A stretch of 23,767 bases of DNA, from positions 1 to 23,767 of the IMG/VR virus record IMGVR_UViG_3300011115_000171; one strand, given 5' to 3'. Position numbers and translations under genes: made by a program. This stretch comes from a virus. Under the pieces are notes generated by a model. The model saw nothing but the letters and a program-made list of their open reading frames with translations. It was not told the origin of the DNA and ran no database searches. Below are positions 5,695-6,651 of this stretch, one piece after another (the stretch's first letter is position 1; each line of letters starts with the position of its first letter).

Positions 5695-5859
5695 ATGACT
5701 AAAGAAGAATTATGCAAACTCGCAGGCTCACAGAGTGAGCTAGCCCGAATCTTGGGAATAACCCGTGCGTCCGTCCATCAATGGAAACACGTTCCAAAGG
5801 GGCGTTTGTATGATTTGTTGAAACTTCGACCCGAATGGTTTAAAAATCAGAAAAAATGA
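5695..5859 (+). CDS. Cro/YdaS-like HTH regulator
   Basis: The 54-residue product starts MTKEELCKLAG and carries a clear helix-turn-helix (SQSELARILGITRASVHQWK, residues 12-31). A VPKGRLYDLLKLRPEWF tail typical of Cro/YdaS-type phage regulators follows. It should bind operators in the adjacent divergent control region and repress early or repressor promoters. It is the first rightward gene, the usual position of cro. A half-site similar to palindrome 1 overlaps its start, suggesting autoregulation. No partner CI-like repressor or integrase is in the window, so the lifestyle cannot be settled. Its stop overlaps an ATG at 5856 as ATGA. Confidence 0.85.
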   Translation: MTKEELCKLAGSQSELARILGITRASVHQWKHVPKGRLYDLLKLRPEWFKNQKK

Positions 5860-5867
5860 TATATACT
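5839..5867 (+). promoter_or_regulatory. Possible promoter for the hairpin RNA
   Basis: TTTAAA (5839-5844) and TATACT (5862-5867) are 17 nt apart; the -10 matches 5 of 6 positions. Transcription would start near 5874, just before a CGTCTA...TAGACG stem (5874-5879 / 5890-5895) and the long hairpin. Such AT-rich matches can arise by chance. Confidence 0.35.
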
Positions 5868-6296
5868 AAAAACCGTCTAGAGTGGCATTTAGACGATGAA
5901 CAGAAGAAATTAACCCCGCAGGGTACTGTGTGGTCTTGTCGTACGGCAAGCGAGTCTTTTGACCTTCTGTTCAATCGTCTTGCTGTTGCTCTCGCCAAGA
6001 GCCAAGACCACAGAGCATCTTGCGGGGTTTTTGCTTTTGGACAACACAATGCGGTACGTCGGTGGTTGTGTCTGAGATACCCCATAACACGAGCAAACCA
6101 AAGTGGGGAACGTGGGCGAATCTTTAGAGCGTGGTGGTTGAAACAGTCTGAAGTAATGCGATGCGATGACCTGGCTCCGAAAAGCAGACATTTAAAGCAT
6201 AGAGCGAACTTTGTTTATGAACACGGTAAGGCTATGCTTTGCTCAAACCTTCACCAAAAAGCATTATTGAATACAAGGGAGATAAACGATGTTTGA
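5856..6296 (+). CDS. Doubtful ORF spanning the control-region RNA
   Basis: An open frame of 146 codons starts with an ATGA overlap on the HTH stop and ends 8 bp inside the replication gene, which is how real genes are joined here. Against it, leucine codons are often CTT, CTC or CTG whereas neighbours prefer TTA/TTG. The product is rich in Trp, Cys and Arg with no recognisable domain. The frame also crosses a 27-bp stem ending in a T-run. I think a noncoding leader is at least as likely. If real, its function is unknown. Confidence 0.3.
   Translation: MIYTKNRLEWHLDDEQKKLTPQGTVWSCRTASESFDLLFNRLAVALAKSQDHRASCGVFAFGQHNAVRRWLCLRYPITRANQSGERGRIFRAWWLKQSEVMRCDDLAPKSRHLKHRANFVYEHGKAMLCSNLHQKALLNTREINDV
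5912..6034 (+). ncRNA. Long hairpin RNA with terminator-like 3' end
   Basis: Positions 5912-5938 pair with 6003-6029 in a 27-bp stem containing two G-U pairs and two mismatches. Its base is AACCCCGCA against TGCGGGGTT and its top is GTGGTCTTG against CAAGACCAC. The 64-nt apical region contains a further GCGAG (5950-5954) / CTCGC (5991-5995) pairing. The stem runs straight into TTTTTGCTTTT, as in an intrinsic terminator. Placed just after the Cro-like gene, it occupies the position of lambda tR1/OOP. It could be a terminator that controls entry into the rightward operon, or a stable regulatory RNA. The structure was read by eye, without energy calculation. Confidence 0.55.
6041..6288. other. 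Stretch without a confidently supported gene
   Basis: Apart from the doubtful frame described above, I see no convincing gene on either strand. It contains an ACACAA / TTGTGT pairing near 6042-6070. A perfect 9-bp stem AAAGCATAG / CTATGCTTT is at 6194-6202 and 6232-6240 (29-nt loop). The ribosome site AAGGGAG for the next gene follows near the end. It may be a structured leader for the rightward operon. Confidence 0.4.
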
Positions 6297-6651
6297 ATCA
6301 GGTTTTGATAGGTTTTGGAATTGTTACCCAAAGACTCCACGTAAGGGGGCAAAGAGTGAATGTCAAAAAAAGTGGGTTAAGTATTATTGCGAAAACCAAG
6401 CTGATCAAATTGTCAAACATATAGAGTGGATGAAAACTACGGAACAATGGTTAAAAGGAAATGGCGCATTTATCCCTGCGCCCCTTGTTTACCTTAATCA
6501 ACAAAGATGGGACGGGGCTGATATACCTGATTTAGTGGTTAAACCTGATCGTGATCCTGAGTTAACAAGATTAGAAGAAGAAACAAAAAAAGCCGTTCCT
6601 ATGCCTGAAGAAGTGCGGCTACGGTTGGCGCAATTAAGGGGCAGAGCATGA
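6289..6651 (+). CDS. Phage replication-associated protein
   Basis: The 120-residue product has the pattern FDRFWNCYPK (6-15), then HIEWMKTTEQWLKGNGAFIPAPLVYLNQQRW (44-74). This block is common at the C-termini of phage replication initiators and replisome organisers and of related stand-alone proteins. It probably helps load the replicative helicase or primosome at the phage origin; the initiator N-terminal DNA-binding domain is absent here. AAGGGAG lies 7 nt before the start. The gene is coupled to the methyltransferase by ATGA. Confidence 0.65.
   Translation: MFESGFDRFWNCYPKTPRKGAKSECQKKWVKYYCENQADQIVKHIEWMKTTEQWLKGNGAFIPAPLVYLNQQRWDGADIPDLVVKPDRDPELTRLEEETKKAVPMPEEVRLRLAQLRGRA

Follow-up and report, generated by a model that had tools for sequence, protein, structure and literature searches.

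The window analysed here, 23,767 nucleotides of viral DNA (positions 1 to 23,767 of IMG/VR record IMGVR_UViG_3300011115_000171), encodes on its plus strand a Cro-like helix-turn-helix protein of 54 aa (5695-5859; P22_Cro, 1.3e-08) and, as the first gene downstream of the RNA described below, a replication protein of 120 aa (6289-6651) that matches positions 177-249 of the 288 of phrog_9474 (E 1.4e-13). The window's strongest local inverted repeat lies between the two, with arms at 5912-5938 and 6003-6029. The initial annotation had described a 27-bp stem; both arms, each of 27 nt, are present, but they are 85% complementary (23/27 pairs) and the stem is imperfect. The hairpin region has a folding energy of -78.7 kcal/mol, whereas dinucleotide shuffles reach -47.8 +/- 4.2 (z = -7.33; 0/200 shuffles as good), and the opposite strand folds more weakly (z = -3.8). 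In phage lambda the rightward terminator tR1, which is Rho-dependent and simple, follows cro and lies between cro and O. The hairpin had been placed where lambda has OOP/tR1, and the gene order, with a Cro-like gene before and a replication gene after, is indeed that of the lambda cro-O region; OOP is antisense and the hairpin RNA reads rightward, so that tR1 is the counterpart that fits. In contrast to lambda, the element in the window has a long hairpin with a predicted pseudoknot, a U-tract and a putative promoter of its own.

A sigma70-type promoter is predicted by consensus scan at 5839-5867 (+), with TTTAAA (5839-5844) and TATACT (5862-5867) separated by 17 nt. The possible promoter noted earlier gains support from the relatives, in which conservation of the -10 element is established by alignment and in several of which TTGACA-17-TATAAT, or else TGTATAAT, stands at the same place. 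On the opposite strand, a consensus scan of the window found no promoter-like site within the RNA.

An open frame of 146 aa (5856-6296, +) overlaps the whole region. It shares an ATGA overlap with the Cro-like gene, is open for 146 codons in the window, and as a tblastn query recovered 19 related loci, all of which might speak for a real protein with the repeat as its by-product. It has no Pfam or PHROG match, however, and in most relatives it is broken by frameshifts and stops while the DNA stays alike, so that conservation lies in nucleotide-level pairing. We judge the frame spurious, and a protein reading extremely improbable. The initial annotation had set an RNA against protein-level selection on this frame; what the relatives have is a broken frame and a conserved, non-coding RNA.

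Setting and distribution of the element

Comparison with related loci identifies the long hairpin as the 5' half of a predicted structured non-coding RNA of ~390 nt with two modules (about 5873-6263, +). The single hairpin of ~160 nt first described is thus part of a larger conserved unit, and the pseudoknot helix P2, the 3' half to about 6263, the modularity and the wide spread had been missed. By these comparisons, an RNA of predicted structure precedes the replication genes in hundreds of uncultured viruses of bacteria. The profile of this 5' module (module I) gave at least 198 strong matches in the fetched IMG/VR loci, an exact search with the P1 sequence gave 112 IMG/VR stretches, all containing the element, and two further sequence patterns gave at least 119 matches each; this evidence comes from uncultured contigs, and the family size is a lower bound. 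At E <= 1, Rfam 15 has no family that matches the element, whether in the window or in 14 related loci, save for a sub-threshold match to int-alpA beside one type of 3' module (type B, below), and a blastn search with the element found no match among 50,697 phage and 72,556 plasmid records. Three genome-set matches of an 18-mer (L133-L135) were dismissed as chance, as they have no -10 element and their sequence departs at once.

In the loci examined the rightward operon that follows cro opens with the RNA, and 80 loci have a same-strand ORF cluster at the place of the Cro-like gene. ERF and YqaJ genes lie upstream of the RNA on the other strand, and methyltransferase, RusA and NinB genes lie downstream. 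The replication proteins of relatives are mostly of 115-130 aa and match phage initiators in their C-terminal part only, with the initiator-type domain beginning within the first ~20 residues in most. The replication protein is cut down to the C-terminal initiator domain in nearly all RNA carriers examined, in the window (6289-6651) as in its relatives. The RNA carriers appear to be podovirus-like phages in which no integrase or CI repressor was detected: neither a tyrosine integrase (PF00589, the search being for this type as distinct from serine integrases) nor an S24 repressor (PF00717) was found in 31 long records, which may be incomplete. Among the isolates listed, the TerL match of highest identity was to Rhodoferax phage P26218, at 43%.

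A hypervariable helix in a terminator-like 5' module

The predicted 5' end of the RNA is formed by hairpin P1, CGTCTAGA-GTGGCA-TTTAGACG (5874-5895), which is the small stem previously seen 5' of the hairpin; its loop GTGGCA is invariant, and its stem carries compensating changes. The long stem, P3, has its 5' arm at 5912-5938, with compensatory changes at the stem base, and its 3' arm at 6003-6029, found both by the inverted-repeat scan and in the consensus structure of relatives. The further apical pairing reported earlier resolves into two helices enclosed by P3, namely P4 (5944-5985; 5944-5953 with 5975-5985), which has compensatory changes, and the near-invariant P5, GCTCTCGCCAAGAGC (5988-6002). 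A consensus of P1, P3, P4 and P5 built from 39 diverse sequences has 18/42 pairs changed on both sides, and this covariation, which the initial annotation had put forward as one of its checks, establishes the structure at the level of sequence comparison. P3 runs directly into the U-tract TTTTTGCTTTT (6028-6039), the T-rich tract noted earlier at 6028-6038, which forms the junction to the 3' module. The signature is that of an intrinsic terminator, with a CCCCGC/GCGGGG stem followed by TTTTT in the window, and is kept in relatives. The U-tract, like the promoter, is conserved across aligned or segmented modules: a T run of at least 4 is present in 130 segmented modules, where the segmentation pattern itself required a T run, and also in relatives read by hand.

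A further helix, P2, pairs the linker between P1 and P3 (strand a, CGATGAACAGAAG, 5894-5906) with the loop of P4 (strand b, CTTCTGTTCAATCG, 5964-5977) and crosses P3, which makes it a predicted pseudoknot. Both strands are hypervariable. The 130 distinct modules carry 64 different b strands, and as many alleles of P2, which are always self-complementary. The duplex with its own partner has a mean of -14.5 kcal/mol, compared with -5.5 with other alleles, and for 105 of these 130 modules no partner equals or betters its own. P2 differs in 44 of 59 module pairs that are otherwise identical at all scored segments, with both strands changed together; these segments were delimited by anchors of our choice, and the identity counts treat sequences as independent. 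The window module belongs to such a set, in which the b strands AACATTTT, ACCTCTGTT, ACCTTCTGTT and AGTCACTT are carried on one scaffold. Outside the RNA, the contig that carries a P2 allele is not enriched in matches to it (11.6 vs 14.8 for other alleles), and on this ground we set aside the idea that P2 regulates further genes of its phage. P2 therefore most likely pairs within its own RNA or with a second copy of it.

It could be argued that P2 is simply a needed helix of free sequence in a constitutive attenuator or stability element that involves no self-recognition, and that its variety stems from compensatory drift and rampant recombination. The A1 and P4 helices are likewise free to vary, with 31 alleles of P4 and 26 of A1, next to 42 of P2, in 90 phages; recombination is rife, and modules and alleles are shuffled across backbones, all of which agrees with such an origin. 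Against it, among pairs of phages whose O-like proteins are more than 0.9 similar, P2 is identical in 11%, compared with 27% for P4, 63% for A1 and 65% for the 3' tag X (below). P2 thus changes faster than A1, the other free, covarying helix of the same RNA, despite rife recombination. Moreover, the two P2 strands are exchanged as a pair while the stretch between them stays as it is, and a different module repeats the pattern in its loops. We consider drift and recombination in a passive structure an unlikely account. A helix that changes faster than its neighbours yet is always self-complementary has the signature expected for self/non-self recognition.

The repetition of the pattern is found in module II, a different 5' module, where a P1 loop of 7-8 nt is complementary to the terminator loop in 10/10 real cases, a count that leaves out two more pattern matches that are not modules. 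Module III (L237, L245, L268) is distantly homologous to module I. A GC-rich stem with a T run closes each of the different 5' modules. This bears on whether the element acts as a leader for processive antitermination. The put RNA of phage HK022 alters RNA polymerase, which then reads through terminators farther downstream, and a folded RNA of this kind would suit a strongly conserved, promoter-proximal element at the head of a long early operon. The U-tract, in contrast, is internal to the element and conserved in all 5' modules, and antitermination elements need no hypervariability; we give this reading a slim chance.

The 3' module and its lock-step direct repeat

Several different 3' modules (types A to E) occur behind the U-tract, and the type A module is also found behind 5' modules of other sequence. 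The window has type A (6040-6263), whose helices include 6040-6050/6064-6072 and 6079-6085/6103-6109. In an alignment of 54 sequences, 16 of 28 predicted pairs show compensatory changes, with strongly covarying pairs among them; since the minimum energy is not unusual (z = 0.30), the structure of type A rests on this covariation. A distant type A-like RNA, lacking module I, is present in MW202512.1 (L278:2430-2730), a circular podovirus with ParB, where the annotation places several tiny hypothetical proteins, probably false ones.

At its 3' limit type A reads CACC-A-X, where X is a tract of ~8 nt that also occurs internally after CTCC-G. In the window the first copy, AAAAGCA, lies at 6180-6186 and the second, again AAAAGCA, at 6257-6263, where conservation ends. 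Across 67 distinct pairs from relatives the two copies vary in lock-step, with per-position identities of 0.91, 0.96, 1, 1, 0.99, 1, 1 and 0.84 that then fall to near chance, and the base before X nearly always differs between them (G vs A). X is rich in purines (0.78-0.83 vs 0.56). No complement that varies with X was detected in the RNA or in 900 nt around it, and mutual information yields identity pairs only; an excess of complements of X at -240 to -220 was traced to the T-rich tract after module I, which is invariant with respect to X. Two other roles were discarded. X is Shine-Dalgarno-like in only 8 of 48 distinct versions, and identity is still 0.87 in cases with the start codon over 30 nt away. 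Nor does X have a special link to the Cro-like protein, as would be expected of its operator, since it tracks the Cro-like and O-like proteins about equally. A direct repeat is found at the same kind of place in types B1 (GGGTNNAA) and E (AACTAGCATA), and types C and D have there a complementary pair instead, as read by eye.

These features raise the prospect that the 3' module is a replication origin, in which the first copy of X in the RNA would pair with template DNA at the second copy, and the persistent R-loop would prime replication or open the DNA for a helicase loader. In ColE1, RNA II requires a G-rich stretch upstream whose sequence is matched farther downstream. RNA II forms an RNA-DNA hybrid (R-loop), which provides a precedent, and like it the RNA described here would be a promoter-driven non-coding RNA lying before a replication start, in our case a proposed one, whose folded 5' part controls it (PMC5043065). 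In contrast to ColE1, no antisense RNA I was seen, the repeat is of 8 nt, variable and purine-rich, and a replication protein is encoded. That 8-nt identity rather than complementarity is kept, with no co-varying complement in cis, agrees with pairing to the template, as do the purine bias of X, the absence from the downstream protein of an initiator part N-terminal to its C-terminal match, the lack of iteron-like repeats, which were looked for, and the repeats of types B1 and E, which also end at the 3' limit. The complementary pairs of types C and D are at odds with it; the turn in GC skew near the RNA coincides with a turn in gene direction; and the distant relative MW202512 is without a clear repeat and lies away from the replication gene. 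Pairing of RNA with template DNA is suggested, as a minor option, because identity of X is kept without a complement; an R-loop origin as such has, in our estimate, a low probability.

Other 3' modules have features of their own. The type E module (L172, L153, L157) is a different RNA of ~370 nt that is near-invariant in the copies seen, and its direct repeat, of 10 nt, ends at the 3' limit. In L100, the type B module contains a T-loop-like arm, ACGGTTCAAATCCGT, inside ATCATCA/TGATGAT, which is reminiscent of a tRNA-like domain. Two tRNA-like genes lie near the type B RNA of L039 (482-622 and 2647-2727, -), one with a long internal insertion of 83 bases unmatched by the tRNA model. An int-alpA-like RNA (RF02996) scores just below threshold right after type B (L049:5241-5314, L070:929-1002 and L039:2554-2627), with 35.5 vs 35.8 bits in the case of L049 and L070, and the copy in L049 ends with AGGAGG ahead of a gene start; it is a separate element of 71 nt, absent from the window.

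The 3' end of the RNA runs into the start of the first gene, at a median distance of 24 nt, and the window has no terminator after it. This weighs against a trans-acting ornate RNA, in which the 390 nt would fold into a particle or bind a host or phage protein and P2 and the module II loops would build homo-oligomers. The large RNAs GOLLD and ROOL are linked to phages. They are strongly structured and form homo-oligomeric complexes (PMC12286853), and serve as precedent; strong loop conservation, an own promoter, modular domains and possibly intermolecular pairing would fit such an RNA. The element differs from them in having no Rfam match to either family, in its smaller size, its place at the head of an operon, the swapping of two modules and its hypervariable tags. 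We regard this reading as quite improbable.

Possible function at the head of the replication operon

The two-module unit of ~390 nt, the hypervariable pseudoknot and the lock-step direct repeat together change the likely mechanism from that of a lone hairpin. Of the options offered by the initial annotation, a stable small RNA or regulated terminator appears to fit best, and its overall interpretation is partly supported. Our tentative preference, which falls a little short of an even chance, is for a promoter-driven leader RNA that heads the early (replication) operon as a regulated terminator, with P2 as an allele-specific recognition pair. The RNA would start at P1 from its own promoter, and P3 and the U-tract would act as an intrinsic terminator, yielding either a short RNA of ~160 nt or read-through via the 3' module into the replication gene. 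The short RNA would be made by default, and read-through to the replication operon would be under control. In cis, strands a and b of P2 would pair into a pseudoknot and so give the terminator its shape; in trans, once a short RNA is complete, its b loop could pair with the a strand of another transcript still being made, provided that both are of one allele, and thereby tune termination. Replication genes would in this way be under copy-dependent feedback, and sibling phages that carry an identical tag would be excluded. Rare tags would be favoured by such negative frequency dependence, leading to fast turnover of tags.

In module II, the complementary loops appear to follow the same logic as P2, which argues for the regulated terminator. 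Several observations are less comfortable for it. The 3' module is conserved too, so that a terminator-only reading is incomplete, and the lock-step repeat within it is left unexplained. Pairing of a with b in cis would compete with pairing in trans. P4 and A1 also vary, and part of the variation in P2 may be due to drift and recombination. The long multibranched stem is, moreover, unlike a textbook short terminator hairpin. An RNA with two tags would accommodate the repeat: P2, or the kissing loops of module II, would let phages that lack a detectable lysogeny module recognise sibling genomes and shut them down through RNA-RNA pairing, and the 8-nt repeat would mark the phage's own DNA, by an R-loop, as the replication start, replacing the missing initiator domain. 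We hold this combined reading to be distinctly unlikely.

Phages are known to use terminator/small-RNA circuits of the kind proposed for the regulated terminator, as in satellite phage P4 and with IsrK (PMC4825925). In P4, the CI RNA derived from the leader transcript pairs with leader sequences and causes premature termination (PMC4825925). The resemblance to P4 immunity lies in a leader RNA upstream of replication genes, and the regulated terminator would work much as P4 CI does; strands a and b are complementary and hypervariable, and might pair in trans. In P4 the target sites seqA and seqC flank the processed CI RNA, whereas a and b lie inside one terminator module, and there is no sequence or Rfam match to P4. 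The purpose of the P4 system is prophage immunity, which in its strict form was rejected here, as neither PF00589 nor PF00717 was found in the 31 long records. As no lysogeny module turned up, prophage immunity is a less likely purpose than replication feedback or the exclusion of siblings that carry an identical tag. IsrK, from the Gifsy-1 prophage, is similar by description: transcription from a single promoter produces both a terminated small RNA and a read-through form, on which the former acts in trans (PMC4825925). IsrK activates translation of its read-through form, however, and its gene order and target differ from those of the RNA in the window.

The comparisons point to a large and widespread family of structured RNAs in uncultured phages that is absent from Rfam 15, and such an RNA is one that genome annotation can overlook or fill with false small ORFs. 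The 3' repeat makes the idea of an RNA-specified origin directly testable. The hypervariable, self-complementary tag suggests that these viruses may recognise their own kind through RNA; if so, this would be RNA-based recognition among phages without a detectable lysogeny module.
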